From positions 1-44,597 of the IMG/VR virus record IMGVR_UViG_3300042317_001198: a DNA stretch of 44,597 nt; one strand, 5' to 3'. The position numbers and the translations under genes were made by a program. This DNA comes from a virus. This document shows, in pieces, positions 12,203 to 30,022 of this stretch (within the stretch, counting starts at the first letter, position 1; the number at the start of each line of letters is the position of its first letter). The notes beneath the pieces are model-generated. The model saw only the letters and a program-made list of their open reading frames with translations. It was not told the DNA's origin and did not search any database.

Positions 12203-15200
12203 ATGACGATTAATTTTTCAGTTGCTCCATACTATGATGATTTTGACTCAACCAAAAACTATCACAAGATACTTTTTGTCCCGGGCCGAGCACTACAATC
12301 ACGTGAATTAACACAAATTCAGTCCATATTGCAGCATCAGATTAAGCTCAATGGGGATTACATGTTCAAAAATGGTGCAATGATTGTACCAGGTAATGTT
12401 GATCTTTTGAACAACGTCAGATATGTAAAATTGGAATCGACAATAGATGGTGTTTCAACTGACACGATAATCGACAGCTTCTTAGATAAAAAAATTGTAG
12501 GTGCAACTACCGATGTTAAGGCAGTTGTTATTCATGTTGAAAAATCGACTGCCTCCGAACCGCCAACCTTGTTTATTAACTACATTTCGGGTGGTGTGGT
12601 AAACAATGTATTCAGCACTGAGTTTATTAGAAACGAAGAGCTGTGTTTAGAAGAAGATGCCAACACTATTCTTAAAGTGTTGAACCTGTCCACTTACACT
12701 GGTTTGGGGTCATTGGCAAATATCAAAGAAGGTGTTTACTACATTAATGGATTCTTTGTTCAGAATGTTGCACAAGTAATCTCGCTCGATAAATTTGGCA
12801 TTACACCAACATATCGCATAGGTCTTAGCTTTGTCGAGAACATCATAACAGCATTTGATGATCCGACACTTAATGATACAGCAGTCGATTCCAATAACTT
12901 CGGTGCACCTGGTGCTGATCGATACCAAGTTGTTCTTACATTGGATAAGAGATCATTATTTGAAGACCAAGAAAACACCAATACTACAAATGATCAATTT
13001 ATCGACCTTCTCCACGTTAAGGATGGTCAAATCCAATTCAAAGTTAACAAAACCGAATTGAGTGAATTTGAAAGGACGTTGGCAAGGAAAACATACGACG
13101 AGTCTGGTGATTATGTTGTCAGACCGTTTAAATATGAAGTACATGAGTACCGAAACAACAACAGAGGCGATTGGGCGCCATCAACAGTCTATATTGAAGG
13201 TGACATTATAAAGAAGAGTGTGACTGTTGGTATCACAACTAAAGATCAGTACTTTGTTGCATTGGTTAATGGTGTATCATCTCCAACAACATTTGTCCCC
13301 ACTAACACATACGGTGAATTTGACGACTCCACAATGCGTTGGCTGGCTACTGATAAGCCAGTATTTAACACAGGGTTTCACAAATCAACATCAGCAGAAA
13401 CATTTGACAAACAACTACTAGACTCCTCACTCGGACTGATAAAGATATCAGAAGGTACAGCATTTATCAAGGGATTTGAAGTTGATGTGTCGGGATACAG
13501 AACTGTCACGTTCAACAAAGCAAGAGAAATCAAACGTGTGGCGAACAGCGTAATAAAGTGCAATACGGGAGCATACATTCTTGTTAATACAGTTAGAGGA
13601 ATTCCACCACTAACCCATATCGACTCGTCAAATAAAGTGCTGTCAAAATTGACCATTAAGAATGCAGTCGGCGCTTCTGTAGGAACATGCAGAATAAGGA
13701 ACGTAGAATACGATTCAGGCACCACAACTCTAGATTCTTGCGTATATAAGTGCTTCATTTTCGACATTGTTATGGATGACGGAAAACTATTTTATCGGGA
13801 TGCTAAAAAGATCATTACAGCTAGCAACACAACATTCTCTGCCAATGTTGTGGGGACAAGAGTTGCTTTGTCGGGGTCAGTGACAGGGTCAGCAGGAACT
13901 ATAAATGGTGATGGTACTCAGTTCTCGTTGGATCTTGTTGTTGGTGACACAATTGTCATTTCTGGCGTTTCGTATCGTGTTTCAGCTGTAACCGATTCTG
14001 TTACATTGACATTAGATACAGCAACACCAACTATAGCAACCGCTGTCCCAGTGTATTTGGAAAGAACGGAACTTGTTGGTGCGGCGTCATTACTACAGAA
14101 ACTACCTACAGGTTTTGTGAGGTCTCTGAGAGGTTCTGATGACAGTGAATTATCAACTGAATACTACACCAAACGTGTTGAGCAATTTGTGGCGAGTGGT
14201 ACAACTAAGGCGATACCTCTGACAGTTACTGGTGAGACATTTGCCCCAAACACAACTGGTAATTACTTCATTGCATTGGCTGACGGATCAGCTATACCTG
14301 TAGTTGCAACTGTTGCTGGAGCAGGCACAAGCAGTATTACAATCTCAGGATTGACGAATGCAGTAACATATCGTGTGATGTACACCGTTAAAAAGATATC
14401 AGCTGCTGCTAAAGAAAAGCAAAAAATAAGAAAAATAAAAACGGTCGACTTTACGACAGTTAATTCAGTGAGTGGCGAGTTCATGCAGCTGACTGAAGCA
14501 GACTGCACAAGAATAATTTCGATATCACAGTCTGGTGGCACACAATTCAATTATGCGAGCCCTGCTGCAACTGTATCATATGATGTATCGGTGTTGGCAA
14601 CAGATGTCACATCAAATTACAGACTGGACTCGGGTCAAACAAACACATATTATGGCCTCGGTAAAATTTATCCACTAAATGGGTTCAAACCAAGTGCGCC
14701 TATTCGTGTGACATATGAGTATTTTGATCACACTCAAGGTGATTACTTCTCTGTAAATTCGTACAATGTCCCATACAATATGCTACCTGTATTTAATGGT
14801 GTTAGTGCGGCAGATTACTTGGACTTTAGGCCACGCATCGATGATAATGGCACCACATTCGACGCTGCAACTGGAGCATCAGTTACAGAACCATTATCAG
14901 AATTCTACTCACTACAAACAGACTATTCTTACTACCTAGCTAGACGTGATATTCTACAACTCGACCCTAAAGGATCATTTAGGGTTGAAGAAGGTATACC
15001 TGCTGATCTACCAGTTGCGCCGCTGCCTAATGATGATAATGTCATATTAGCTTACGTCGATTTGGATCCTTACACATTTACTTCCAATAGTTCAAATGTT
15101 CATATCACCAATAATCCTATGCAAAGATACACCATGAAGGATATTGGTGCAATAGATAACAGACTAAAGAATGTTGAATACTACACTGCACTAAATGCTC

Positions 15201-18200
15201 TGGAACAACAAACAAGTCTACTTCAAATCAAGGACCAATTTGGACTTGACAGATATAAAAATGGATTCATTGTTGATCGATTCAAAGATCATGGTGCTGG
15301 TAACGTTTCCAACCCCAACTACAGATGCGCTATCGATCCCGGTAGTTTAGAGTGCCGCCCGTCGTTCTACTCCGACGATGTTAGACTGCTAGAGAAGGAA
15401 GGCCAGTCCAGGACAACGAATAGTTACCAGGTTACAGGTGATATTGCAACACTCCCTTATTCTAGTGTTGTTTTGATGGAGCAAAAAACAGCAACAACAC
15501 CCGAGTATATTACACCATACACCCATGTTAGATCAATGATTGGTGACTTAAAGATATTCCCTGCATCAGATACATGGGTTGATACAGTAACATTGCCTGT
15601 GATAAATCAAGTCGGAAATGGAAACTTTGCCGCTGTTCAAGTTATGGCACAATCAACAGGCATACTTGGTACAGTATGGAATTCGTGGCAAGCTACAGGC
15701 AGAACAACAATTGCATCGACACTAACCAATAGTGTTAGTAGAGTTGGTGTTGGTGCTCAAGGTGCCGAAACATCAAGAACGAATGTGGTTTCGACAAACA
15801 CATTAAATGGAACTGACTTACTAACTTTTGGTCGTGGCGGGATAGAGACATTTGTTCAAGAACAGATAGACGAAGTTGGAAGAGTAACTTCAGTAGTTGA
15901 TGAAAGTTGGTCGCCATTTATCAGACAAAAAGCTATAGTTCTCTTTGCTAAGAGAATGCTTCCTATAAACGGGTTCGATGTGTATGTTGATAACACAACT
16001 TTGACTCAATATGTTGTACCTGCAAGTACATTGAGATTAACTGATAAAGTCGGCACATTCTTGAACTATAGTACATCGAATATCGATCACTCCAACTTAA
16101 CTTCTAGGCAATATGGATCAAATTCATATGACATATTGGAGAGAGGTGAAGTTATACGAGGTGCCACATCCGGTGCAACAGCAATTGTTGTGTGCGAAGA
16201 AACACAAGTGGAGTTAGGTATCTCGGAATTGGTCCTTAAGGTGTTAAATGTAAAAGGTACATTTGTTGCCAATGAAAAGATTGTGGGCACCACTTCAGGC
16301 GCTTCTGCAACCTTTACATCTGTTACGACAGAAACGAATATCAGAACAAATAGTGCTGGTAGTTTCTACGGAATTTTAATGTTACCTAACAACAGTCAGG
16401 TTAGAATAACTGCTGGTATTGTGACGATCTCTTTAAGAGATAACATCGATCAGAAAAGTGCCAAAACAACCTCATTTGCAATGTACGATGGTCAAGGCAT
16501 AATTCAGACAATGCAGACAACTATAATGTCTATCAGAAATGGAGTCATTAGTAGGAGAAATGCCTCGGAGACGTCACAAACTACTGAGAATTGGTCAACG
16601 GTCGTATCCAGTACAGTCATTGCAACTGAAGTGACAAACTGTAACTGTGCATGTAACTGTGCATGTGATTGCGGCTCAGACCCATTATCACAAACATTTA
16701 TGCACAGTGATCGGGGCGGCATATTCTTAACATCAATCGACTTGTATTTCTATGACGTGGATCAAGATGAGTCGACAGGTGTATCATTCGAGATTCGTGA
16801 GGTTGTGAATGGGTATCCCGGCCCAGGTGTTGTGCCGTTCAGTCACGTTGTGAAATATCCTAGTGAGTTAGTTGCATCGAAAACATCATTGGTACCTACA
16901 AAATTCACGTTCGATTCACCGGTTTATCTACCTGACAATAAAGAATATTGTTTTGTTGTTGCATCTGGCATCAGCAATACGAGATTGTGGATTGCTAAAA
17001 TGGGAGAAGTTTCCTTAGATGGTAGGTCTGTGGTGTCACAACCAAGTTTAGGGTCAATGTTTAGGTCACAGAATAACTCAACTTGGGATGCTGATCAACT
17101 TAGTGATATGTGCTTTACATTATACAAAGCTAAGTTCAACATCACAACTCCGGGTCATGTTGCATTCAAGAACATTCCTCTGGGATCGACAAAGTTAGAT
17201 AACAACCCATTCAAAATCAATGCAAGTTCTACAACTGTCAGAGTGTCGCACAAAAATCACGGCCTATATGATGGTGCAATAATAACCTTCTCTGGTGTGG
17301 TGTCGGCTCTAACTCATCCAACCTCTGTTGAATTGAATAAAGACTTTACCATTAGTGATGTTGAGTTAGATTCCTACACAATCACAATTCCTGTTGCTGC
17401 AACAAATTCTGGCTGGTACGGCGGCGCAGCATGTATGGTCACAACAGGCAGAAGAATGGACACAATGCATGTTAGCGGAAAGGATTTTGTCCTCCCTGGC
17501 ACTCACATAAATTACACATACCGTGGCACAACTAGAATTAACAACGTTGTTGAAAAGCTTGCAATCGATTATCCTGTCCAATTGAATAGGAACATCGAGT
17601 TTGATAATCCTAGATATGTTCTGACACCTGCGAATGAAACAGATACTGTAAATGAAGACTCATTTTCTTTTGATGCTTTCTTATACAGCAACAATGAAAA
17701 CTTATCGCCTGTTGTTGATTTACCAACATACTCATTACACACAATCAGTAACAAGATCAATAACCCAACAAGTGCAATAAACAAAGAAATCGATAGTAAT
17801 TTGATTTTTAGTGTGGCTGGTGGTCATTCTGGTGTCATAGTATTCAACAATGCCGGTTATTTTATTATTTCTGGTGGGCTTTATGGGTCATATGTCACTG
17901 AATTAGGAGGTATAAAGGTTGGAAAGTATGTCAAGTTTACAGGGACTGTATCTAATAATAGCCCTCTGTTAGTGACAAAAGTTGAAAAACTATCTACACC
18001 TTCATATAAGATATACACATCATCAACTGTTGTCACTGAAACAGCACCAACAACGGCAATTACTTTGGTTAGGTATGATCATTATGTTGATGCAATCTCT
18101 CCTGACACAGCAAGCAATTTGGCATCGTATGTATCGAAGATTGTAGAGTTACAGAAGCAGTCCTCAGGATTTAAATTGATGTTTGATTATAACAAACCTG

Positions 18201-18448
18201 TGGATGCTCATATTGATGTTTACTATAAGGTGAATCTAAAATCAGCGTATGGTAATATCGAAAGACAAAATTGGACAAAACTGAGTGATGCTACATTCGT
18301 TGAAGGCTTAACGTCAGTTTTCAGAGAACAGTCTATAGATATGGAAACCGCGTTGTACGATCAAATAATGATTAAGATTGTGTTGAATTCTGATAATACT
18401 TCAAAGGTTCCTAGAATAAAGAATTTCAGATTGATTTCCTTGGCATAA
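12203..18448 (+). CDS. Giant DUF4815-type baseplate/tail protein, paralogue A, 2,081 aa
   Basis: Start ATG 12203, AAGG at 12191-12194. The N-terminus, VAPYYDDFDSTKNYHKILF, PGRALQSRELTQIQ and FKNGAMIVPG, is typical of the DUF4815 family of large myovirus virion proteins. Other modules: WAPSTVYIEGDII near 324; a GTQFSLDLVVGDTIVISG unit near 573; TSGATA and TSGASA units (about 1319-1375); six alternating Cys at 1480-1490; then DPLSQTF opening a jelly-roll-like domain with EIREVVNGYPGPGVVPF; and a KNHGLYDG module near 1686. Two further Cys, 1042 and 1051 (C-x8-C, ECRP), recur at the same spacing in paralogue B. It follows gp8, where T4 has gp9-gp12, so an outer-wedge or fibre-anchor role is likely (inference). 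Confidence 0.8.
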   Translation: MTINFSVAPYYDDFDSTKNYHKILFVPGRALQSRELTQIQSILQHQIKLNGDYMFKNGAMIVPGNVDLLNNVRYVKLESTIDGVSTDTIIDSFLDKKIVGATTDVKAVVIHVEKSTASEPPTLFINYISGGVVNNVFSTEFIRNEELCLEEDANTILKVLNLSTYTGLGSLANIKEGVYYINGFFVQNVAQVISLDKFGITPTYRIGLSFVENIITAFDDPTLNDTAVDSNNFGAPGADRYQVVLTLDKRSLFEDQENTNTTNDQFIDLLHVKDGQIQFKVNKTELSEFERTLARKTYDESGDYVVRPFKYEVHEYRNNNRGDWAPSTVYIEGDIIKKSVTVGITTKDQYFVALVNGVSSPTTFVPTNTYGEFDDSTMRWLATDKPVFNTGFHKSTSAETFDKQLLDSSLGLIKISEGTAFIKGFEVDVSGYRTVTFNKAREIKRVANSVIKCNTGAYILVNTVRGIPPLTHIDSSNKVLSKLTIKNAVGASVGTCRIRNVEYDSGTTTLDSCVYKCFIFDIVMDDGKLFYRDAKKIITASNTTFSANVVGTRVALSGSVTGSAGTINGDGTQFSLDLVVGDTIVISGVSYRVSAVTDSVTLTLDTATPTIATAVPVYLERTELVGAASLLQKLPTGFVRSLRGSDDSELSTEYYTKRVEQFVASGTTKAIPLTVTGETFAPNTTGNYFIALADGSAIPVVATVAGAGTSSITISGLTNAVTYRVMYTVKKISAAAKEKQKIRKIKTVDFTTVNSVSGEFMQLTEADCTRIISISQSGGTQFNYASPAATVSYDVSVLATDVTSNYRLDSGQTNTYYGLGKIYPLNGFKPSAPIRVTYEYFDHTQGDYFSVNSYNVPYNMLPVFNGVSAADYLDFRPRIDDNGTTFDAATGASVTEPLSEFYSLQTDYSYYLARRDILQLDPKGSFRVEEGIPADLPVAPLPNDDNVILAYVDLDPYTFTSNSSNVHITNNPMQRYTMKDIGAIDNRLKNVEYYTALNALEQQTSLLQIKDQFGLDRYKNGFIVDRFKDHGAGNVSNPNYRCAIDPGSLECRPSFYSDDVRLLEKEGQSRTTNSYQVTGDIATLPYSSVVLMEQKTATTPEYITPYTHVRSMIGDLKIFPASDTWVDTVTLPVINQVGNGNFAAVQVMAQSTGILGTVWNSWQATGRTTIASTLTNSVSRVGVGAQGAETSRTNVVSTNTLNGTDLLTFGRGGIETFVQEQIDEVGRVTSVVDESWSPFIRQKAIVLFAKRMLPINGFDVYVDNTTLTQYVVPASTLRLTDKVGTFLNYSTSNIDHSNLTSRQYGSNSYDILERGEVIRGATSGATAIVVCEETQVELGISELVLKVLNVKGTFVANEKIVGTTSGASATFTSVTTETNIRTNSAGSFYGILMLPNNSQVRITAGIVTISLRDNIDQKSAKTTSFAMYDGQGIIQTMQTTIMSIRNGVISRRNASETSQTTENWSTVVSSTVIATEVTNCNCACNCACDCGSDPLSQTFMHSDRGGIFLTSIDLYFYDVDQDESTGVSFEIREVVNGYPGPGVVPFSHVVKYPSELVASKTSLVPTKFTFDSPVYLPDNKEYCFVVASGISNTRLWIAKMGEVSLDGRSVVSQPSLGSMFRSQNNSTWDADQLSDMCFTLYKAKFNITTPGHVAFKNIPLGSTKLDNNPFKINASSTTVRVSHKNHGLYDGAIITFSGVVSALTHPTSVELNKDFTISDVELDSYTITIPVAATNSGWYGGAACMVTTGRRMDTMHVSGKDFVLPGTHINYTYRGTTRINNVVEKLAIDYPVQLNRNIEFDNPRYVLTPANETDTVNEDSFSFDAFLYSNNENLSPVVDLPTYSLHTISNKINNPTSAINKEIDSNLIFSVAGGHSGVIVFNNAGYFIISGGLYGSYVTELGGIKVGKYVKFTGTVSNNSPLLVTKVEKLSTPSYKIYTSSTVVTETAPTTAITLVRYDHYVDAISPDTASNLASYVSKIVELQKQSSGFKLMFDYNKPVDAHIDVYYKVNLKSAYGNIERQNWTKLSDATFVEGLTSVFREQSIDMETALYDQIMIKIVLNSDNTSKVPRIKNFRLISLA
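16640..16675 (+). other. Cys-rich motif CNCACNCACDCG encoded in DUF4815 paralogue A
   Basis: Codons 1480-1491 encode six Cys at every second residue. At the DNA level TGTAACTGTGCA (16640-16651) is repeated exactly at 16652-16663, followed by TGTGATTGCGGC, so one CNCA unit looks like a 12-nt tandem duplication. The motif lies between a Ser/Thr-rich stretch and a DPLSQTF-led beta domain. Possible roles are metal binding on a trimer axis, disulfides, or a substrate for the radical SAM enzyme; none is shown by sequence. Confidence 0.85.
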
Positions 18449-18451
18449 ATA
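18444..18451 (+). promoter_or_regulatory. T4-type late promoter CATAAATA over the stop codon
   Basis: CATAAATA contains the TAA stop (18446-18448) of paralogue A and lies 27 nt before the ATG at 18479. It should drive the unit DUF4815 paralogue B, 63-aa protein and radical SAM gene. Confidence 0.65.
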
Positions 18452-18478: not shown

Positions 18479-21400
18479 ATGACACTTAATCTAAATTCTG
18501 CACCATATTATGATGATTTTGATCCTGCTGACAATTATCTAAAGATATTGTTTCTGCCAGGTAGAACTATTCAGCCTCGTGAACTAACGCAATTACAAAC
18601 CACCATTCAAGAGCAAATAAAGAAGCACGGCGACTTCAATTTCCAAAATGGTGCAATGATTGTTCCTGGGTATATCAACTTTAGCAATAGAGTTACATAT
18701 GTAAAATTGAATGAGTTGGTTTCTGGGGTGTCAGTCAATAGTGTTATAGATGCACTCTCAGGGAAAATTGTTGTTGGTTCGACCACAGGAGTAAAAGCAT
18801 TAGTTCTGTTTAGTGAAAAATCAACATTAACAGATTCAGCTGCATTGTTTGTTCAATATGTGTCAGGCGGATTAGATCCACTGGATACCTCAATACTGTA
18901 TTCAGAATTTAAACCGGGTGAGGTTCTTACATTAGAAAATTCATCTAATTCAGTTATTGTTAGTGATGATGTAACATATACCGGTACTGGATCATTTGCG
19001 GAAATAGCCGAAGGCATATACTATGTAAATGGTTATTTTGTTCAAGTTGCTGCCCAAACAATATCACTTGACAAGTTCGGAACAACCCCATCATATCAAA
19101 TTGGACTGCAACTAAAAGAATCAATTGTAACAGCAGAAGAGGATTCTACATTATACAACAATGCGAGTGGGTTCTATAATACAACAGCTCAAGGTGCTGA
19201 TAGACTTAAAATCGAACTTATTTTAGAAAAGAAATCGTACTTTGACACCGCCGTAACAAACGAGTTTATACCGTTAATGTTTGTTAAGGACGGCGAATTG
19301 CAGAGTAAAGTTTCAACAACAAAACTAAATGCAACAGGTAAAATATTAGCTGACAGAACATATTCTGAATCAGGTAACTATACTGTCATTCCATTTAAAT
19401 TTGCGCCGGTTAGACATCGTTCAAACAACAGGGGAGAGTGGCAACCCAATACTCCGTATGTTGTGGGTGATGTTATCAATTATACAATTGACTCAAAAAC
19501 ATATTATCTAACGGCATTAAACACATTATCTTCCGGGTATTTGACACCAAATGTAACATACGGAGAATTTAATGATGGAGGCATCAGATGGTTAGTCGTA
19601 GATGCGCCAAGATATAATGGCGGTCTTTATGACGCAATTGGCACTTTAGATGCTCATGTGAGAGACTACAATACAGGTGATATTAGAGTAACAAAAGGCA
19701 AAGCATATATTAAGGGTAATGAAATTGATATATCAACTGGGTTCAGAAATGTTGAATTTAATCTAGAACCAGTATTTACAAACGCCTCATATAATTCTAT
19801 AACACCAATATCTGGTCAATATTTTTATATCAACGATATCAAAGGTTTGCCATCACTTGCAAACATTGATTCTGTAAATAAAATGTATTCAACATTTGAT
19901 ATAATGGACAACAATTTATCCATTACAGGGTCATGTCGTATTAGGAGTTTTGAGTATGATTCGGGGACACTAGGGGCAGCTGATTGTTTGGCTCGTCTTT
20001 ATATTTTCGACGTTGTTATGGATGCTGACAAGCCATTTGCACAATATGCTCAAAAGATTAAATCACAGAGTAATGGTTCATTTTCTGCAAACATTGTGGG
20101 AACCCAAAATGCACTTAGTGGTAGTGTATCAAATGGTGCTGGTTCAGGTACAATAACTGGAAACGGGACGCTGTTTTCTTTAGAGCTTTCTGTCGGTGAT
20201 TCCATTGTTATAAAAGGTTCGACAGTATCTTCTCATAAAGTGACAAACATCGCAAGTGCAATATCGATGACGGTTGTTCCCGCTGTGGTTGGTGCAAATA
20301 GTAATGTGATCTGCTATAAGGAAAGTTCCGCAATATCAGGTGTCAATTCTCTGATACAACCTTTACCTGATTCTTTTGTGAAGACCATTAGAAATGATTT
20401 GGGTGATGTGAAAACATCATATCATGTCAAGCGCATGTATCAAGCTAGAGCAATAAACGATACCATCACCCTAAACGTCTCTTCACAGAATGAATTGTTC
20501 TCATCAACCAGTCCTGATTTACATTTAGTATCTTTAGAAGATGGAACAGTAGGTCCGATTAATGGACTGACAATAACAATATCAGGCACAAACAACTCGC
20601 AGTTACAGATATACAAGGCAGGGTTGGGGAATAGTACATATCGTGTTTTAACAACAATCAAGAAACTTTCATTATCAGCTAAAGAAAAAGTAAAAACACG
20701 GAAGTTTAAAACCATTGTATTGAACACATTGAATGATGCTGATATACCAAAAATTCCATTAACAGAAGCAGATGTTGTTCGTGTTGTTTCTGTTACTCAA
20801 TCTGGTTCAAATTATTTCGATTACACAAAACGATCTGAGTTTAAAGAATATGTTGATCTGGATGAAATTGATATTACATTATACTACACGATAGAATCAA
20901 CATCAAACAACACTTATTATAATGTTAGTTATGTGCAACCAACATCAAATTGGTCGCCAACAGCACCAATTAAGATTACTTATGAGTATTATGATCATGG
21001 CCCGGGAGATTATTTTTCTGTAGATTCATATGATGTTCCTTATTCCATGATCCCTAAGAATGGGATGAATAGCTTTGCTGATTTTCTAGACTTTAGATCA
21101 AGAATATCAGACGGCGGCCTAAGTTTTGACACAGCTGATGGTGCATCTATTTCTGAGCCACTTTCAAGTATTCATCCAATAGAACTATTCTATTCGATAT
21201 ATCTGCCTAGGCGAGATGTAATAGAAATAACATCTGATGGAAGCTTTAGAATTGAGCAAGGTCAGCCTAGCTTAAATCCTGTTGCTCCAATAGCTAATGA
21301 CGGTTCAACTATATTGGGCATAATGCAAATACCGGCATATGTTTTCAATATTAGTGATGTCACTATCACCAACGTCAATATAAAACGATACACAATGAAG

Positions 21401-24400
21401 GATATTGAGTCGATAAAAAATAGATTGGACAATGTCGAATCCGCCGCATCATTATCTATGTTGGAATCGTCTGCATACTTAGAACAAATACAAGATGGGT
21501 TTGGACTTACTAGGTTTAAAAACGGATTCATTGTTGATCAGTTTAAGGATCATAGCACAGGAAATGTCGGTGACCCTGATTATAAATGTAGTATAGACTC
21601 AACAAGGCAAGAATGTCGCCCAATGTATGTTGCCAATGATATAAAGTTGATAGAAACTGACAATCATTTACGCAACCTAAATGGATACACTGTAACTGGT
21701 GATCTTGTTACATTGCCTTATACCGAGACAATTCTATTCCAAAACATAAATGCATCGACACCAGAGAATATAACACCGCTGACTCATATCAGTTCTTCTG
21801 TAGGTAGTTTGAATATATTTCCTGCAGCAGACACATGGATCGATGAGATAACAATTCCGAGTATAGAAGTTCGTAGTCAGGGGTCGTTTGCCTCAACAGA
21901 ACTTGTAGCAACTCAGTTGGGTGTGTTGGGTACAGTTTGGAATGCATGGCAAGAGGTTGCAAGAACAACAGTTGCGACTGAAACAACCATCAATAGGAGT
22001 GCTTCTAATTCGTCTGTTTCTTTTGATTCAACAACTGGTGCTGAAATATCTGCAACCACAACAATAACCACTAGAACTGACACTGTTGTTACTATTGTTG
22101 ATGGAACAGATGAGGTTACAAGAGAAAGAACAGGTATAAACACATTTGTTCAAGAACAATGGGACGAACTTGGTAGGGTTGATGGACTGTCTACTCAGAA
22201 TTGGGTGCCATTCATTCGCCAAAAGGCAATTGTAATGTATGGCAAAAACTTCATGCCACGTGTCCCTTTATATGCGTACATAAATCAATTTAATGTAACT
22301 GATTATGTTGTGCCCGCTTCAACACTCGAGTTCACTTCTAAAACTGGCACTTTCTTAGATTATAAATTCTCTAATATCGATCAAACAGATTTGAGCACCA
22401 GACAATACGGCGCAAATTCATATGACATATTGGAAAAGGGTGAAATTATTTACGGTGCAACTTCTGGTGCTTCAGCTATTACTATAGCTGAAGAACTTGT
22501 TGATGGAACAAGTTATCTAAGGATACTCAATGTCAAAAATGGCCCATTTGTTGATGGGGAAACTGTTAGGGGTAAAACTAGCGGCGCTTTCGGTGTAATA
22601 AATGGTACCAACGAAGAAGGCGAAATGGCTACAAGTGTAGATGGTTCGTTTTTCGGACTGTTGATGCTGCCAAATAATGACACCATTAAAATAGCTGCAC
22701 AGATTATCAATATACAGTTAAGAAATACATTGATGGGCGAGCAAGAAATAACAAGTGCAATTGCATTGTATGACGCCCACGGCATTGCAAATCAAAAACA
22801 AACAACTATATTATCTGTTCGCAATATCAATATATTACGAAGAGGCGTGTTGGACACAACTATAGTTAATGAGAATTGGCAAACGTCATCGTCTGTATCA
22901 ACAAACACAGTAGTCGGCAATACAAGAACAGTTGTGAACTGTAATTGCGCTTGTGATTGCGGCGGCGGTGGGGGCGGTGGTGGTGATCCATTAGCACAAT
23001 CATTTGCTCACACTGATAGTGGTGGTGTTTTTATCACCAAAGTTGATCTTTATTTTTATGCATTAAGTCAATTGGATACAGCACCTATATTCTTAGAAAT
23101 CCGTGAAGTTGTTAATGGATATCCAGGACCATCTGTGGTGCCATTTAGTAACGTAACAGTTCCACCTAGTTTCGTTGCAAATAAAGTATCAACAACAAGC
23201 CTTATACCAACAACATTCACATTTGAGTCACCGGTGTTTTTATCTGATAATACAGAGTATTGTTTGGTAATTGGATCAAACTTTGATGCATTCGCAGAAA
23301 CAAAAGTCTGGACTTCCAAACTAACAGAAGTAAATATTAGAGGTCAGGTTATAACTAGTCAACCGCTGTTAGGTTCAATGTTCAAATCACAAAATGGATC
23401 ATCGTGGAATGCCGAGCAATTAAGTGATGTGTGTATGACTGTGTATAAGGCACAATTTAACACATCTAAGCAAGGCCACCTGAAATTCAAAAATAATCCA
23501 ATCGCTTCAGAGAATATGATGATTGATCCATTCAAAGTGATAAATGGAACTACATTGGTTCGTGTCCTTCATAACAACCATGGTTTAGTAGCGGGTGATA
23601 AAGTCACATTTAGTGGTGCAATTGCCCCTGTTACGGCATTGAATGCTCAATACACAGTAGCTAATGCAACAATTAATGCATTCACTGTTACACTTGGTGG
23701 CAATGCGACATTTACAGGTTGGGTGGGTGGAAATAACGTCAAAATCACAACAAATAAGAGATTTGATACTTTGTACCTAGCGGGTGAAGATCAGGTGTTA
23801 CCAGGGTCACACATCAATTATACTGTCAGAGGAACCAATGCTAGTAGGGTAAAGCCTGCACTCGATTACCCTATTCAAATAAAGCAGAACTACGTAATGG
23901 ATGCGCCGCATTACATAATGTCACCTGAGAATGAAACATTGTACTCAACAGGGGATTCAGTCGAGGTTGATGCATACTTATACAGTAACAACCCTAATAT
24001 ATCACCAGTTATCGACTTAAACACATTCTCACTACATGCAATATCCAACTTGATAAACAATGAAACTGAGGCTGATAATAAGAGTGTCGATGCAAACACA
24101 TTAGTAAATAATGATGACTTAGCTGGCAATGCAGTGTTCAATAATGCAGGATACTTTACCATCACTGATCCTCTATACCTCGATGCTGTCAATACAATCA
24201 AAGTTGGACAATATGTAAAGTTCACTGGAACTGCATCCAACAATAGTGCTATGCTGGTCACAAGAAAAGAAACTGATATCACCACATATTGCACAATATA
24301 CACTTCGTCTCCTGTGGTTAATGAAACAGCATCAGGTTTAGTTACTTTGGTTATATACGATTTCTTTGTGGATTCTATCGCCCCAAGTGCAACGAGCAAC

Positions 24401-24733
24401 TCAGCAAATTACATTTCGAGAATATTCGAAACAGAACGAGTGTCATCAGGTATTAGATTATTCTTCGATTATGTGAAACCAACAGAGGCGTCCTTACGAG
24501 TGTTCTATAAAGTCAATCTAAAATCAGAAATGCAATCGATTGAAACAAAACCATGGACTGAACTAACAGGATTATCATTCATAAACTCATCAAACTCGAA
24601 CTCATACATAGAACAGAAGATTGATAAAGAGCTGGGCAGTTTTAATGAAATCACTATTAAAATTGAAATGAGAACCACCAACACATCGAGGGTACCTAAA
24701 TTGAAAAATATGAGATTGATTACATTAGTATGA
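18479..24733 (+). CDS. Giant DUF4815-type baseplate/tail protein, paralogue B, 2,084 aa
   Basis: A full-length paralogue of the preceding gene, nearly equal in length and colinear; about 47 of the first 79 residues are identical by hand count. It shares the APYYDDFDPADNYLKILF start, WQPNTPYVVGDVI (near 321), the TSGA units, Cys1037 and Cys1046 in C-x8-C spacing, a DPLAQSF-led beta domain with EIREVVNGYPGPSVVPF, and the NNHGLVAGDKV module. The Cys-rich linker differs: four alternating Cys (1488-1494) then eight Gly. A CGGAAA at 18466-18471 serves as ribosome site; an out-of-frame ATG at 18471 stops at once. Its end overlaps the next ATG by 4 nt. A tandem duplication with divergence is the simplest origin. 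The virion position is inferred from family and context. Confidence 0.8.
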   Translation: MTLNLNSAPYYDDFDPADNYLKILFLPGRTIQPRELTQLQTTIQEQIKKHGDFNFQNGAMIVPGYINFSNRVTYVKLNELVSGVSVNSVIDALSGKIVVGSTTGVKALVLFSEKSTLTDSAALFVQYVSGGLDPLDTSILYSEFKPGEVLTLENSSNSVIVSDDVTYTGTGSFAEIAEGIYYVNGYFVQVAAQTISLDKFGTTPSYQIGLQLKESIVTAEEDSTLYNNASGFYNTTAQGADRLKIELILEKKSYFDTAVTNEFIPLMFVKDGELQSKVSTTKLNATGKILADRTYSESGNYTVIPFKFAPVRHRSNNRGEWQPNTPYVVGDVINYTIDSKTYYLTALNTLSSGYLTPNVTYGEFNDGGIRWLVVDAPRYNGGLYDAIGTLDAHVRDYNTGDIRVTKGKAYIKGNEIDISTGFRNVEFNLEPVFTNASYNSITPISGQYFYINDIKGLPSLANIDSVNKMYSTFDIMDNNLSITGSCRIRSFEYDSGTLGAADCLARLYIFDVVMDADKPFAQYAQKIKSQSNGSFSANIVGTQNALSGSVSNGAGSGTITGNGTLFSLELSVGDSIVIKGSTVSSHKVTNIASAISMTVVPAVVGANSNVICYKESSAISGVNSLIQPLPDSFVKTIRNDLGDVKTSYHVKRMYQARAINDTITLNVSSQNELFSSTSPDLHLVSLEDGTVGPINGLTITISGTNNSQLQIYKAGLGNSTYRVLTTIKKLSLSAKEKVKTRKFKTIVLNTLNDADIPKIPLTEADVVRVVSVTQSGSNYFDYTKRSEFKEYVDLDEIDITLYYTIESTSNNTYYNVSYVQPTSNWSPTAPIKITYEYYDHGPGDYFSVDSYDVPYSMIPKNGMNSFADFLDFRSRISDGGLSFDTADGASISEPLSSIHPIELFYSIYLPRRDVIEITSDGSFRIEQGQPSLNPVAPIANDGSTILGIMQIPAYVFNISDVTITNVNIKRYTMKDIESIKNRLDNVESAASLSMLESSAYLEQIQDGFGLTRFKNGFIVDQFKDHSTGNVGDPDYKCSIDSTRQECRPMYVANDIKLIETDNHLRNLNGYTVTGDLVTLPYTETILFQNINASTPENITPLTHISSSVGSLNIFPAADTWIDEITIPSIEVRSQGSFASTELVATQLGVLGTVWNAWQEVARTTVATETTINRSASNSSVSFDSTTGAEISATTTITTRTDTVVTIVDGTDEVTRERTGINTFVQEQWDELGRVDGLSTQNWVPFIRQKAIVMYGKNFMPRVPLYAYINQFNVTDYVVPASTLEFTSKTGTFLDYKFSNIDQTDLSTRQYGANSYDILEKGEIIYGATSGASAITIAEELVDGTSYLRILNVKNGPFVDGETVRGKTSGAFGVINGTNEEGEMATSVDGSFFGLLMLPNNDTIKIAAQIINIQLRNTLMGEQEITSAIALYDAHGIANQKQTTILSVRNINILRRGVLDTTIVNENWQTSSSVSTNTVVGNTRTVVNCNCACDCGGGGGGGGDPLAQSFAHTDSGGVFITKVDLYFYALSQLDTAPIFLEIREVVNGYPGPSVVPFSNVTVPPSFVANKVSTTSLIPTTFTFESPVFLSDNTEYCLVIGSNFDAFAETKVWTSKLTEVNIRGQVITSQPLLGSMFKSQNGSSWNAEQLSDVCMTVYKAQFNTSKQGHLKFKNNPIASENMMIDPFKVINGTTLVRVLHNNHGLVAGDKVTFSGAIAPVTALNAQYTVANATINAFTVTLGGNATFTGWVGGNNVKITTNKRFDTLYLAGEDQVLPGSHINYTVRGTNASRVKPALDYPIQIKQNYVMDAPHYIMSPENETLYSTGDSVEVDAYLYSNNPNISPVIDLNTFSLHAISNLINNETEADNKSVDANTLVNNDDLAGNAVFNNAGYFTITDPLYLDAVNTIKVGQYVKFTGTASNNSAMLVTRKETDITTYCTIYTSSPVVNETASGLVTLVIYDFFVDSIAPSATSNSANYISRIFETERVSSGIRLFFDYVKPTEASLRVFYKVNLKSEMQSIETKPWTELTGLSFINSSNSNSYIEQKIDKELGSFNEITIKIEMRTTNTSRVPKLKNMRLITLV
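22940..22987 (+). other. Cys/poly-Gly motif (CNCACDC then eight Gly) encoded in DUF4815 paralogue B
   Basis: Codons 1488-1494 encode C-N-C-A-C-D-C and the next eight codons are all Gly, followed directly by DPLAQSF. The position matches the six-Cys motif of paralogue A. Gly codons vary (GGC, GGT, GGG), so the run is not a simple slippage tract. It lies in the same operon as the radical SAM gene about 2 kb downstream. Confidence 0.85.
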
Positions 24734-24928: not shown

Positions 24929-26302
24929 ATGTCTATTTTTTATGTGCATGGTGAGAACTGGGATACCGGTGAAAAGAAAGTGTTTGTTTATGATAATGAG
25001 ACGTCTTCTCTAAGTGTTTTGGGTGGTGAAAAAATTGACCTGGAAAAATTCTCAGACTACAAAGGGAATTTCTACAAGAAGGCAAAACAATTTTCGATTG
25101 ACAAGCCACTTGGGAAAAGTAATAGCCCTAAGAAATTGAAAATTCAGCTTGGACTTAAGTGTAACTACTCATGTGATTATTGTTCTCAGGCATTACATGC
25201 AAGTGATTCAGTAGACTTCACACCTAAAGAAATTGAGACATTTTTAAATAGGCTTAAATCACTCGATTTGAGTAAAGTTAATATGATTGAATTTTGGGGC
25301 GGTGAACCATTTGTGTATTGGAAAACAATTCGTCCATTAACAGAAAAACTTAAAGTTATGATCCCAAATGTGAAATTTCTGATCATAACAAATGGATCTC
25401 TTTTATCGGATGATATAATCACTTTTCTAGATGAGAACAACTTCGCAGTTGCAATTTCTCACGACGGCCCAGGGCAATCAATTAGAGGTCCGGATCCTTT
25501 CGACGATCCTGAGAAACGTGAGAAGATATTAAAGTTGTTTAATTTACTTCACCCAAAAGGTAAAATAAGTTTCAATGCAGTGCTTCATGCCAAAAATTAC
25601 AGTAGAAAAGCTATTATGGATTTTTTCATCGAAAAGACAGGATGCGAAACAGTTGGGTTTGGGGAAGGTGCCGTGATCGATGCATATAATGATGGTGGAC
25701 TAGAACTATCATTCTATGATTATCAAGACATGATTAAATTTAGGAGAACTGCATTTTCTGAACTTAGTGAATTGGGTCGTGGGCAATTATCAATTAAGCA
25801 CAATAAGATAACAGGGTTTATATCAACCATTGTTAATCAGAGAAATTGGCACACTTTAGGTCAAAAATGTGGCATGGATAGTGAAGATAATTTAGCTGTT
25901 GATATGAAGGGTAATGTTGTCACTTGCCAAAACGTGAGTGCCAATCTAAAATCCTTTAATGGAGAAAGTCATAAAATAGGAACAATCGACAATATCGGTG
26001 ATGTGAAATTGAACACCGGCACTCACTGGTCTTTAAGGGAAAATTGTCAGAAATGTCCAGTTCTTCAACTTTGTGGTGGGTCTTGCTTCATGCTTGAGGG
26101 AGAACATTGGGATAGGTCATGCGATAATTCATATAACGATAATGTGGTATTTTTCATGTATGCAATCGAAATACTAACAGGATTTATACCGTATTGGATT
26201 GAGGGTGTCGATTTGCCTGAGTGGAGGAAAGATGTGTTGGGAATGCAGTATCCTGACATGACTCGCAAGAAAAAGAGTGTCATACCGATAAAACTAGTAT
26301 AA
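24929..26302 (+). CDS. Radical SAM/SPASM-domain enzyme (peptide/protein-modifying type), 457 aa
   Basis: Start ATG 24929 with GAGG at 24920-24923. The radical SAM signature is C78-x3-C82-x2-C85 (CNYSCDYC), with the SAM-binding WGGEP at 123-127. The C-terminus holds a complete seven-Cys SPASM pattern: C314-x13-G-x4-C333, then C373-x2-C376-x5-C382-x3-C386, then C398. So three [4Fe-4S] clusters are expected. Family knowledge: SPASM enzymes include anaerobic sulfatase maturases, PqqE, and sactipeptide and ranthipeptide maturases, which act on peptides or proteins. No RRE-like (PqqD-like) domain is evident in residues 1-70. It sits in a late structural operon right after a Cys-rich giant protein, suggesting a virion-protein substrate (inference). 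All key residues are intact, so it is probably active. Confidence 0.93.
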   Translation: MSIFYVHGENWDTGEKKVFVYDNETSSLSVLGGEKIDLEKFSDYKGNFYKKAKQFSIDKPLGKSNSPKKLKIQLGLKCNYSCDYCSQALHASDSVDFTPKEIETFLNRLKSLDLSKVNMIEFWGGEPFVYWKTIRPLTEKLKVMIPNVKFLIITNGSLLSDDIITFLDENNFAVAISHDGPGQSIRGPDPFDDPEKREKILKLFNLLHPKGKISFNAVLHAKNYSRKAIMDFFIEKTGCETVGFGEGAVIDAYNDGGLELSFYDYQDMIKFRRTAFSELSELGRGQLSIKHNKITGFISTIVNQRNWHTLGQKCGMDSEDNLAVDMKGNVVTCQNVSANLKSFNGESHKIGTIDNIGDVKLNTGTHWSLRENCQKCPVLQLCGGSCFMLEGEHWDRSCDNSYNDNVVFFMYAIEILTGFIPYWIEGVDLPEWRKDVLGMQYPDMTRKKKSVIPIKLV

Positions 26303-26305
26303 ATA
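26298..26305 (+). promoter_or_regulatory. T4-type late promoter TATAAATA over the stop codon
   Basis: A perfect T4 late octamer TATAAATA contains the TAA stop (26300-26302) of the radical SAM gene and lies 33 nt before the ATG at 26339. Confidence 0.75.
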
Positions 26306-26338: not shown

Positions 26339-29300
26339 ATGACAAAACCAATCGTAAGCAGAGATCACACATTAGATCAATGGAGAACAATCACCAATAG
26401 ATTGGCCCACAATATCGGTGATCCTGAAAGAATTATGGAATCTGGTGACGTCCCAAACACCTCTGGACTTGTTGGCGATTCTGTTTCGAATTCAACAGAC
26501 CCATATATGCATGACGCAACAACAGAAGGTGATGTTTCAGCTTCTCATGTTGGTGAGATAAATGCAATCGTTTTGGCAATAAACAATCTGAATTCCAGAA
26601 AAGTTAAGCGAACCGGTGATGTGATTACAGGTGGGTTTGGTGTAACTGGTGTTCTGCAATCACAAGGCGACACCCATCTAGGTCGTGCGGCAAGTAACCC
26701 ACAGAATACAACACTTACAATTTATGGAACTGCAGTTGCAATTCCGAATAGCTTAAATTTCAATTCAGCAACTCTGTATGTTGATGTTGCATCAAAAGTA
26801 GGTATTGGTGCAGCGCCATCATCAACAGAGACATTTCAAGTTACAGGAAACTCAAAATTAACAGGCACGTTGCAAGTAACAGGCAATGCACAATTTGACG
26901 CTGACATTGATGTTCGTGGCAGTGATATAACAACAAACCAGACTACATTTAATTTACTTGCAAGTACTGCAACAACAATAAATGCATTCTCTGCTGTGAC
27001 GACATTGAATTTGGGTAATGCATCTGCTGCCCAAACAGTTAATATTGGAAATGCATCGACAGGAACATCGACTTACAATATTGGTACAGGTGCTCCATCG
27101 ACAGGGAACACCAAATCAGTAAATATAGCTACAAATGGTGATGTTGGATCCACAACAAATATTAATGTCGGATCGTCCGTTGCAGGAACATTGACTGTTC
27201 TAACACCGTTATCAATCATCCCTAAAGTTGCAGGTTCGATCACAACAACACAAGATCTTCAACTACAAGCAAATTCGGCCAACACATCAACAGGAAGAGT
27301 TATCATCCTCACCACAACTGATAATGGCGGTGACGCATCAAGTGGCGCATTAGTTGTTGGTGGTGGAGCTGCAATTGCATCGAAATTATATGTTGGTTCT
27401 GATACATTGCTTAAAGCAGCAGTGACAGTGAATGGTACAGGTAATGTCCTCATCACCACAACAGGAACTGCAACAATAAGCCCAACAAGCACAACAACAT
27501 TGGGCACACTAGCGCAAACAACCACACTATTAGGAAATATTTCAGCTGCATCAGCTGCACAAACAATCATTCTTAGCCCAACCGGTGCAGCAGGAACAGT
27601 TACAATTGCTCCTGGAACTTTGACTGGATCGATCAACAATATGAATGTGGGTGCAAGTGTCAGAGGCACTGGTGCATTCACAACATTGGCATCCAATGGA
27701 GCAACAACATTCACGTTAGCAACTGATAACACATTAGGAACAGTGGCATCTGGTGCTGTGCAAGTCACAAGTGGACTTGGTGTTGGTGGTAACGTAACCA
27801 TTGGTGGTGATCTTCAAGTTAAAGGTGGCGATGTTGTTATTGAAGGTACACCTGTACTATCCGCATCAGTTGCAGCTAATGCTGTATCACTGTTTGCTTC
27901 CAGTACAAGTACAATAACAGTTGGTAGTGCATCATCGACCACTTTGGCATTGAATTCTGTTAGTCAAACAGTCGGCCAAGCAGCCGGAACATTCACATTA
28001 AACTCAGGAACAGCCACACTTAATAGTAACACAACAGTTACAGGAACAAAGACATTTACTGTCGGCACTGGCCTGACAACATTGGGTGGAGCACTGACAG
28101 TTACTGGAGTGGCAACATTTAATGGTGCATCATTATTCACATCAGTAACAGATAACTCATTGGGAACAGTTGCATCCGGATCCGTACAAATTTCCGGTGG
28201 CATGGGCGTTGGCGGAAATGCAACAATTGGTGGTGATGTTCAAGTCAAGGGCGGCGACATTATCATTGAAGGCACTCCTGTAATATCCGCATCAGTTGCA
28301 GCTAATGCAGTGTCATTATTTGCATCATCAACAGGCACAATAACATTAGGTAGTGCAACATCAACAACATTGACATTGAATTCTGTTAGTCAGGTAATTG
28401 GACAAACCGCAGGAACATTCACATTAAATTCTGGAACTGCAACAATAAACAGCAACACATCGATTACAGGAACAAAGACATTTACTGTTGGCACTGGCTT
28501 GACAACATTAGGTGGCGCATTGACCGTCACAGGCACAACCACATTAAACGGAGCTGTTACAGCAAGTCCAGCTAATGCAAATGTGACCATATCACCAACA
28601 GGCACAGGTACTGTAACTATATCACCTGTTGCTGCCTTGACAATAAATCCAACAGCAGCAAGCACAATAAACAACTGCTCGATTGGCGCATCGACAAGAT
28701 CTACTGGTGCATTCACATCATTAGCAGCTAACGGCGCAACCGCATTCACATCTGCTACAGATAACACATTGGGTACAGTGGCATCTGGTGCTGTGCAAGT
28801 CACAGGTGGTTTAGGTGTTGGTGGCAATGCAACTGTCGGCGGTGACTTGCAGGTCAAGGGCGGTGATGTTGTTATTGAGGGCACACCTGCAATATCAGCA
28901 GCAACCACAATTAGTGCTGTGTCATTATTCACAGGATCAACCGGTGCAATTACTATTGGTAATGCGTCAGGCAGCACGATCGTCAACTCAAGTTTGCAAG
29001 TTGGAGCAACTGGATCCAGTGTGACACTTACTGTTGCATCGGGCGACATAGTTCTAAGTAACGGAACTGATGCTGTCCAAACTATAGTTTCTGGTGTGGC
29101 GGCATCAACGGCGGCAGTATTTTCAACAACAAACACTGCAACGTTAAATTTGGGTCTTGAGGCCGCAGTTAATATCAGTAAGGCAGCCAAATTAACAACA
29201 ATAAACGGAACATTGACCGTTGCCCAAGCAGCAACCTTCAATGGAGCTGTCACTGCAAGTCCAGCCAGCGCAAATGTGACTATATCGCCAACAGGCACAG

Positions 29301-30022
29301 GTAGTGTAACAATTTCTCCTGTCGGGGCATTGACAATTAACCCAACAGCAGCAAGCACAATAAACAATTGCTCGATTGGCGCAACAACACAAAGCACTGG
29401 CGCATTTACGACATTAAGTGCAAGTGGTGTAATAACATCGACTGTTACAACAGGGACTGCCCCATTTACGGTGGCATCAACAACCAAGGTAACAAACCTA
29501 AATGCTGATACACTTGATGGTACAGATTGGTCGGCTCCAGGAACAATTGGTGGAACAACACCAGGCGCTGGTAATTTCAGTACCCTTTCGGCAACTAGTG
29601 GAATAACAGGAACGATCTCAACAGCATCACAAACAAATATAACTGCAGTTGGTACGCTTGGTTCCTTAGCGGTGACAAATGATGTGACATTTGGCACAAA
29701 TACTGTTATTAATACAGCTACAATCACAACAACTACTGCTAGTGCGAATCAAAAAATTGCATCATTTGCAAAAGCAACGTACCGTTCATGTGAATTCTTG
29801 GTTCAAGGTGTTGCAGCTGGTGCATTCACTCTGTCTAAAGTTCTTGTTGTGCATGATGGTACAAATTCTGATTATGTTGAGTATGGAAGGATCGATGTGG
29901 GCGGCGCAACATTTAGCTTAATTGCAACAGCAGTTAATGGCGCCGATATTGAATTGAGAGTAACTCCTGCAGCAGCAGTTTCGACTGTATGGAAAGTGAC
30001 TATGGTATTAACAAAAGTATAA
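26339..30022 (+). CDS. Giant repetitive tail fibre-like protein, 1,227 aa
   Basis: Start ATG 26339 with AAAGG upstream. The first about 90 residues are non-repetitive (SRDHTLDQWRTITNRLAHNI, then GEINAIVLAINNLN) and may attach to the virion. The rest is Gly, Ser, Thr and Ala-rich beta repeats: three long copies beginning DNTLGTVASGAVQV or DNSLGTVASGSVQI at residues 463, 605 and 808, each followed by GLGVGGN, IGGDLQVKGGDVVIEGTP and fibre-type SISGTATINSN-like strands. A NVTISPTGTG unit also repeats near residues 747 and 978. The last about 90 residues are again non-repetitive (SFAKATYRSCEFLVQGV, VTMVLTKV) and resemble C-terminal domains of other T4-like fibres. It is a single-gene unit between two late promoters. 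Fibre or whisker function is inferred from composition. Confidence 0.75.
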   Translation: MTKPIVSRDHTLDQWRTITNRLAHNIGDPERIMESGDVPNTSGLVGDSVSNSTDPYMHDATTEGDVSASHVGEINAIVLAINNLNSRKVKRTGDVITGGFGVTGVLQSQGDTHLGRAASNPQNTTLTIYGTAVAIPNSLNFNSATLYVDVASKVGIGAAPSSTETFQVTGNSKLTGTLQVTGNAQFDADIDVRGSDITTNQTTFNLLASTATTINAFSAVTTLNLGNASAAQTVNIGNASTGTSTYNIGTGAPSTGNTKSVNIATNGDVGSTTNINVGSSVAGTLTVLTPLSIIPKVAGSITTTQDLQLQANSANTSTGRVIILTTTDNGGDASSGALVVGGGAAIASKLYVGSDTLLKAAVTVNGTGNVLITTTGTATISPTSTTTLGTLAQTTTLLGNISAASAAQTIILSPTGAAGTVTIAPGTLTGSINNMNVGASVRGTGAFTTLASNGATTFTLATDNTLGTVASGAVQVTSGLGVGGNVTIGGDLQVKGGDVVIEGTPVLSASVAANAVSLFASSTSTITVGSASSTTLALNSVSQTVGQAAGTFTLNSGTATLNSNTTVTGTKTFTVGTGLTTLGGALTVTGVATFNGASLFTSVTDNSLGTVASGSVQISGGMGVGGNATIGGDVQVKGGDIIIEGTPVISASVAANAVSLFASSTGTITLGSATSTTLTLNSVSQVIGQTAGTFTLNSGTATINSNTSITGTKTFTVGTGLTTLGGALTVTGTTTLNGAVTASPANANVTISPTGTGTVTISPVAALTINPTAASTINNCSIGASTRSTGAFTSLAANGATAFTSATDNTLGTVASGAVQVTGGLGVGGNATVGGDLQVKGGDVVIEGTPAISAATTISAVSLFTGSTGAITIGNASGSTIVNSSLQVGATGSSVTLTVASGDIVLSNGTDAVQTIVSGVAASTAAVFSTTNTATLNLGLEAAVNISKAAKLTTINGTLTVAQAATFNGAVTASPASANVTISPTGTGSVTISPVGALTINPTAASTINNCSIGATTQSTGAFTTLSASGVITSTVTTGTAPFTVASTTKVTNLNADTLDGTDWSAPGTIGGTTPGAGNFSTLSATSGITGTISTASQTNITAVGTLGSLAVTNDVTFGTNTVINTATITTTTASANQKIASFAKATYRSCEFLVQGVAAGAFTLSKVLVVHDGTNSDYVEYGRIDVGGATFSLIATAVNGADIELRVTPAAAVSTVWKVTMVLTKV
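27725..29400 (+). repeat. Three large in-frame repeats within the 1,227-aa fibre gene
   Basis: Copies start at 27725, 28151 and 28760, each encoding DN[TS]LGTVASG[AS]VQ[VI] and the following GGDxQVKGGDxxIEGTP segment. Copies 1 and 2 are the closest and also share FTLNSGTAT and the TGTKTFTVGTGLTTLGGAL segment; copies 2 and 3 share NVTISPTGTG and TINPTAASTINNCSIGA. Spacings are 426 and 609 nt. The mosaic sharing points to unequal recombination. Confidence 0.8.

Follow-up and report, generated by a model that had tools for sequence, protein, structure and literature searches.

Here we propose that an uncultivated T4-like phage encodes, among its baseplate genes, a RiPP-like radical SAM/SPASM maturase that modifies alternating-cysteine tags on virion adhesion and baseplate proteins, folding them into a thioether knot, a reading to which we assign a probability of roughly 0.7. 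The window analysed is a 44.6-kb fragment (44,597 nucleotides) of this virus. In the proposed tag, hereafter the tract, cysteines alternate with Asn, Ala or Asp residues; it was noticed in the neighbours of 62 viral relatives of the enzyme. Both giant proteins upstream of the enzyme carry one (Table 1), and these tracts are its candidate substrate, an element absent from the earlier note on this DNA and added here. The evidence that enzyme and tract are paired across many phages and several carrier proteins is strong, and it is highly probable that the two act as enzyme and substrate.

Table 1. Positions of the genes, tracts and promoter-like motifs of the window.
Feature	Position	Strand	Basis
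Baseplate wedge gp8, start of conserved gp8-VrlC block	10712..12187	+	PHROG 438 match
First of two VrlC/DUF4815-type baseplate giants (paralog 1, 2,081 aa); contains tract 1	12203..18448	+	DUF4815 6e-58; PHROG 358
Proposed substrate site in VrlC paralog 1 (aa 1479-1490): alternating-Cys tract NCNCACNCACDC	16637..16672	+	insertion absent from 5 homologs
CATAAATA, T4-late-promoter-like, one mismatch, before VrlC paralog 2	18444..18451	+	motif match, weak
Second of two VrlC/DUF4815-type baseplate giants (paralog 2, 2,084 aa); contains tract 2	18479..24733	+	similarity to paralog 1
Proposed substrate site in VrlC paralog 2 (aa 1487-1494): alternating-Cys tract NCNCACDC, then eight glycines	22937..22960	+	sequence and alignment
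Small coiled-coil virion protein, 63 aa	24730..24921	+	PHROG 473 'virion structural protein'
Radical SAM/SPASM enzyme, proposed maturase, PHROG 1802 family	24929..26302	+	457 aa, ATG start, complete ORF
TATAAATA, late-promoter-like, overlapping end and stop codon of the enzyme gene, upstream of fibre gene	26298..26305	+	exact motif
Repetitive fibre-like protein, 1,227 aa, after the enzyme	26339..30022	+	ORF; no tract

The earlier note had described a complete radical SAM/SPASM enzyme, and this reading holds: the open reading frame is intact, and the radical SAM motif CNYSCDYC (C78, C82 and C85), GGEP (residues 124-127) and seven SPASM cysteines (C314, C333, C373, C376, C382, C386 and C398) are invariant in an alignment of 49 relatives. 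Loss of cluster cysteines was looked for and found in none of the 136 full-length relatives tested, all of which keep CxxxCxxC, GGE and the seven-Cys SPASM pattern. The protein matches Pfam Radical_SAM (43 bits, cut-off 29.5) and, over residues 59-407, the profile of PHROG 1802 (1.3e-62), a family filed under the PHROGs category 'other'. Structure prediction with AlphaFold2 gave a confident fold (mean pLDDT 92.4, pTM 0.90), for which the nearest PDB structures in a Foldseek search were CteB (5why, 5wgg), anSMEcpe (4k36-4k39), TigE (8vpo) and ChlB (9gm3), with the epimerase EpeE also among the matches. Cluster motif and core fold make the protein a member of the radical SAM superfamily, while the seven-Cys motif places it in the SPASM subfamily, with auxiliary clusters predicted. 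It sits on a long branch, with roughly 32-48% identity to its relatives. At seven loci (L132, L133, L139, L143, L154, L212 and L220) a second, highly diverged ORF of the family (about 90-100 bits) adjoins the main enzyme, and Campylobacter phages CP220, CPt10, CP21 and others encode another radical SAM protein that is only remotely similar (29% identity across some 120 aa).

In a profile search the enzyme rose above the cut-off of none of the curated NCBIfam equivalogs. The three best profiles include those of CcpM, a Cys-rich peptide maturase (TIGR04068), and PapB, a ranthipeptide maturase (NF047865), both with Cys-rich substrates, but scores of 74 against 500 and 62 against 340 bits mark the phage enzyme as a non-member. 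QhpD is a SPASM enzyme that places several Cys thioethers into a real protein subunit, the QHNDH gamma-subunit; its profile (TIGR03906) is matched at 1e-15, yet with 57 bits against a cut-off of 453, and its substrate and genome setting differ. The top Foldseek match, the SCIFF/thermocellin thioether maturase CteB (E 2e-12, TM-score 0.5-0.55), likewise combines a radical SAM core and SPASM domain with a Cys-rich substrate. However, identity is only 17%, the substrate of CteB is a small leader-bearing peptide and not a virion protein, and CteB has a full RiPP recognition element (RRE, the N-terminal PqqD-like domain of RiPP maturases), whereas in the phage model the core is preceded by just three strands and a short helix, some 45 structured residues, and a Pfam search returned no RRE match. 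In the case of anSMEcpe (TM-score 0.54-0.68), which shares the seven-Cys SPASM motif and acts on a protein, TIGR03942 stays far below its cut-off (64.8 bits against 349), no sulfatase gene is annotated near the enzyme, and the tracts hold no CxPxR-type motif. Achromobacter phages JWF and 2-1 carry members of the same family (E 1e-62, 42-46% identity; PHROG 1802, 'radical SAM domain-containing protein') next to a tail protein bearing NCNCDCNCNCSC right before a Hint domain; there the carrier is this Hint-fused tail protein and not VrlC, and the annotation is by domain only, with the substrate not noted.

The structural-gene setting described earlier, with a giant baseplate-type protein and a small coiled-coil protein in one unit with the enzyme, is borne out by our annotation, in which a gp8-type wedge is followed by two tandem VrlC/DUF4815 giants, the 63-aa coiled-coil protein, the enzyme and two fibre-like proteins of 1.2-1.3 k residues each. 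The giants are VrlC/DUF4815 baseplate proteins by DUF4815 profile and by gp8-VrlC-small-protein synteny: cyanophages and pelagiphages have gp8, one VrlC and a small gene in this order, and the equivalent small gene of cyanophages comes after VrlC. The two paralogs share 50% identity over their C-terminal 930 aa. The tandem duplication, with a tract in both copies, was seen in the window phage, while the cyano-, pelagi- and methylophilales phages examined have a single copy without tract. VrlC forms part of a two-layered baseplate, and in pelagimyophages the region right after it is the 'host recognition cluster', where radical SAM gene cassettes lie between VrlC and gp14 (PMC7029224). Random placement away from tail genes was looked for among the relatives; related genes sit with tail or baseplate genes, with the exception of one distant chromosomal branch that adjoins YcaO/nitroreductase genes. 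In this Variovorax/Ramlibacter branch (L246:5285-7690 and L248:5358-7694, from Variovorax and an uncultured gammaproteobacterium) the relative lies beside a YcaO cyclodehydratase, in one case (L248) fused to a nitroreductase domain, with RHS-like ORFs near in both. The alternating-Cys tract was not found in this apparent RiPP cluster, whose YcaO gene fits a RiPP-maturase ancestry of the enzyme family.

The claim that a late promoter drives the enzyme unit proved weak. One-mismatch CATAAATA is the only promoter candidate ahead of the second VrlC gene, and the nearest exact TATAAATA overlaps the last bases of the enzyme gene, where it would be a promoter-like site for the next gene and not for the enzyme itself. 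Exact TATAAATA sites at 26298, 30018, 39367 and 42316 are all on the + strand, each shortly ahead of a gene start; these 4 compare with 3.15 expected in the window by chance, and the T4-late-promoter claim was rejected on this count.

Linkage of enzyme and tract was examined from both sides. Searching outward from the enzyme, up to 4.5 kb away and on its own strand, recovered a tract-bearing ORF at 54 of 62 viral and 61 of 80 bacterial loci. In the other direction, a search for DNA encoding NCNCAC[ND]C that took no account of the enzyme matched 116 new viral fragments of which 87 held the enzyme (99 of 116 records with the 12 found elsewhere in the record), although near-duplicates and shared ancestry among loci mean that these counts are not independent events. 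The eight viral exceptions comprise three loci cut off upstream of the enzyme (L012, L039, L050), one with the tract in an open-ended ORF (L038) and four whose usual partner protein has a degenerate Cys-rich stretch (L029, L042-L044). Some of the 19 bacterial exceptions are incomplete and others represent a distinct YcaO-linked branch; most of the 17 records without enzyme in the tract-first search end a few kb from the tract on the enzyme's side. Among these 17, the candidate tracts in L110 and L128 were rejected as chance matches, the motif frame being antisense to a tail-region gene. A tally of 204/232 was left out of the evidence because loci picked by motif are mixed into it.

The cleanest evidence for linkage, though small, comes from contrasts within the Hint-domain and VrlC proteins. 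When 13 loci were taken by a pattern for the Hint start (FPAGT.V.MADG) regardless of tract, the enzyme was present in the record at 5/5 loci with a tract and 0/8 without (Fisher p = 0.0008). Five VrlC homologs from cyano-, pelagi- and methylophilales phages lack the tract by alignment and the enzyme family by record search, and against them the tract of the window VrlCs is a clean insertion directly ahead of the conserved DPLAQ[ST]F. CDCDCDC, a control that alternates in the same way but has Asp as its spacer, was accompanied by the enzyme in 1 of 120 cases. In a replicate with NCNCNC plus stop, 44 of 62 loci with a real-sized ORF had the enzyme in the record; among the negatives are incomplete contigs and plainly unrelated proteins that happen to have the minimal motif, so a run of three Cys is not specific by itself. 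NCNCNC-ended proteins of unrelated families occur at L293, L296, L334, L341, L352, L371 and L380, in whose records the enzyme family was not found.

With the tract masked, its carriers fall into 12 single-linkage groups, at least two of which are probably spurious ORFs, giving roughly ten plausible families that include collagen-like tail fibres, 80- to 130-residue tandem tail proteins, Hint-fused tail proteins and VrlC. Sactipeptide and ranthipeptide systems differ in that a small leader-bearing precursor is freed as a peptide, whereas here the tract sits on tail or baseplate proteins of 80 to 2,084 aa. Its cysteines are near-invariant and its spacers are 60% N, 25% A and 10% D. The tract is encoded by 132 different DNA versions in which Cys, Asn, Ala and Asp codons vary freely, so it is the protein sequence that is conserved and not a DNA repeat, pointing to selection at the protein level. 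In 153 cases it is C-terminal (within 12 residues of the end), 57 belong to a long form in which a C-terminal domain of 170 residues follows the tract, about 9 lie right before Hint, and the VrlC cases are internal. The long form of cluster c2 (e.g. L004:11425-12306) has this domain conserved (SKIICAKLYEFG...) and missing from short forms; it is perhaps a removable chaperone-like domain. Hint domains as a class cleave themselves at their first Cys, and if those found here do so the tract would again become the mature C-terminus; on the enzyme tree the Hint form turns up at scattered places (4 changes, at least 3 forced). In T4-like relatives with a tract-less VrlC (e.g. L138, L071) a separate small neighbour gene ends in the tract, and the genes after VrlC in L146 encode, in order, a coiled-coil protein, a fibre, three small tract proteins, a protein termed c18, a 2OG oxygenase and the enzyme. 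The tract arrangement of the window was found in only two other contigs, near-identical and incomplete. An AlphaFold model of the C-terminal part of VrlC was too poor to be used as a structure (mean pLDDT 53.5); the tract falls within its residues 267-356, all below 50, which is consistent with disorder without proving it.

SPASM enzymes cleave SAM at the radical cluster, while their auxiliary clusters bind substrate or accept an electron, and sactipeptides, ranthipeptides and the substrate of QhpD provide precedents for Cys thioethers. The substrate proposed here would be the N-C-[NAD]-C-[NAD]-C tract shown on virion adhesion or baseplate proteins, in the window phage the two upstream VrlC proteins. 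Expressed late, the enzyme would bind the unfolded tract; its radical [4Fe-4S] cluster would cleave SAM to a 5'-deoxyadenosyl radical that may abstract H from the Asn, Ala or Asp between cysteines, and the SPASM auxiliary clusters would hold the Cys thiolates, leading to thioether links. A tract linked in this way would be a rigid and redox-proof knot, displayed at the tail tip or baseplate. Near-invariant Cys and N/A/D spacers make Cys-to-spacer thioethers the simplest product, for which, by analogy with these precedents, we see about even odds; a role of the tract at the virion surface is a plausible, if weak, proposal. The internal position of the tract in the window's VrlC, set against its mostly C-terminal position in relatives, counts against this explanation, as do the long branch of the window's enzyme, the rarity of its tract arrangement, the lower figure for NCNCNC and the 19 bacterial loci with no tract inside 4.5 kb. 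Of the two targets suggested in the earlier note, a virion protein or a host peptide, the former gains good support from a specific candidate substrate motif common to the window and most related loci. Since tract-tagged tail proteins almost always lie beside the enzyme in relatives, these phages probably remodel their own tail proteins by radical chemistry.

The enzyme might act on the tract through other chemistry, such as epimerisation of alternating residues, anSME-like conversion of Cys to formylglycine, or C-C/cyclophane links. Each of these reactions is known from the SPASM group, the fold is about equally close to anSME and CteB with ChlB and EpeE also matched, and strict alternation recalls alternating-residue epimerisation; nevertheless, near-invariant cysteines with variable spacers suit Cys as the reacting partner, and the low TIGR03942 score and missing CxPxR-type motif argue against anSME-like chemistry, so that we consider this alternative possible though rather unlikely.

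Two further explanations separate the enzyme from the tract. The tract could bind metal or form disulphides at the tail tip, with the enzyme co-travelling in a host-recognition cassette and modifying something else, for example c18 or a peptide of the host. Metal binding is known for CxC motifs, many copies of the enzyme are accompanied by c18 and 2OG oxygenases, and the pelagimyophage cassettes offer a parallel (PMC7029224), but the tract switches between unrelated carriers while staying with the enzyme, and a c18-like gene was not found in the window although the tract is present, which leaves this account quite unlikely. Very improbable is an ordinary auxiliary metabolic gene, a host-derived SPASM enzyme that serves host metabolism and has nothing to do with virion proteins: phages commonly carry radical SAM genes and the PHROGs category would allow it, but the conserved tail or baseplate location, tract linkage and active site intact in 136/136 relatives speak against it, and the Hint and VrlC controls largely refute it.

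Maturation of the tract by the radical SAM/SPASM enzyme may in some lineages be one step of several. Tracts ending in Trp (..CACACW) are accompanied by a tryptophan halogenase at 10/11 loci versus 2/193 other loci, where one Trp-ended locus is incomplete and the association may reflect one or two evolutionary events because the loci come from few related branches of the tree. This suggests that the halogenase may act on the last residue of the tract. Trp-ended tract and halogenase occur together at L025, L026, L033, L036, L040, L045, L046, L051, L087 and L107, with L030, L031 and L160 as exceptions. Frequent neighbours of the enzyme also include 2OG oxygenases and an Asp/Asn beta-hydroxylase-like protein, which are common in such phages anyway. 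Between tract protein and enzyme, many C-terminal-tract loci encode c18 (265 to 340 aa, no known family; L030:11478-12398, L146:4992-5789, L151:1761-2645), a candidate tail adaptor or partner. We tentatively envisage a modular, multi-enzyme post-translational pathway that would give tail proteins modified tips: the radical SAM/SPASM enzyme would modify a mobile Cys tag on many unrelated adhesins, and some lineages would add further tailoring through 2OG oxygenases and a tryptophan halogenase that acts on the C-terminal Trp; if true, RiPP-like chemistry would be built into virus particles.

The earlier note knew of no characterised phage tail maturase of this type, and our search of the open-access literature (open-licence papers only, hence weak evidence) likewise found no description of one, the nearest being PMC7029224. 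Enzymes of this class are known, but we found no account of virion proteins that a phage's own enzyme matures by radical chemistry at a mobile alternating-Cys tag. An enzyme family annotated by domain only becomes directly testable because a candidate substrate motif is now named and the cultured Achromobacter phages JWF and 2-1 carry the pair. If the proposal is true, tailed phages modify their own structural proteins by radical SAM chemistry, and the exposed parts of some virions would be unpredictable from sequence alone, which bears on receptor binding and particle stability.
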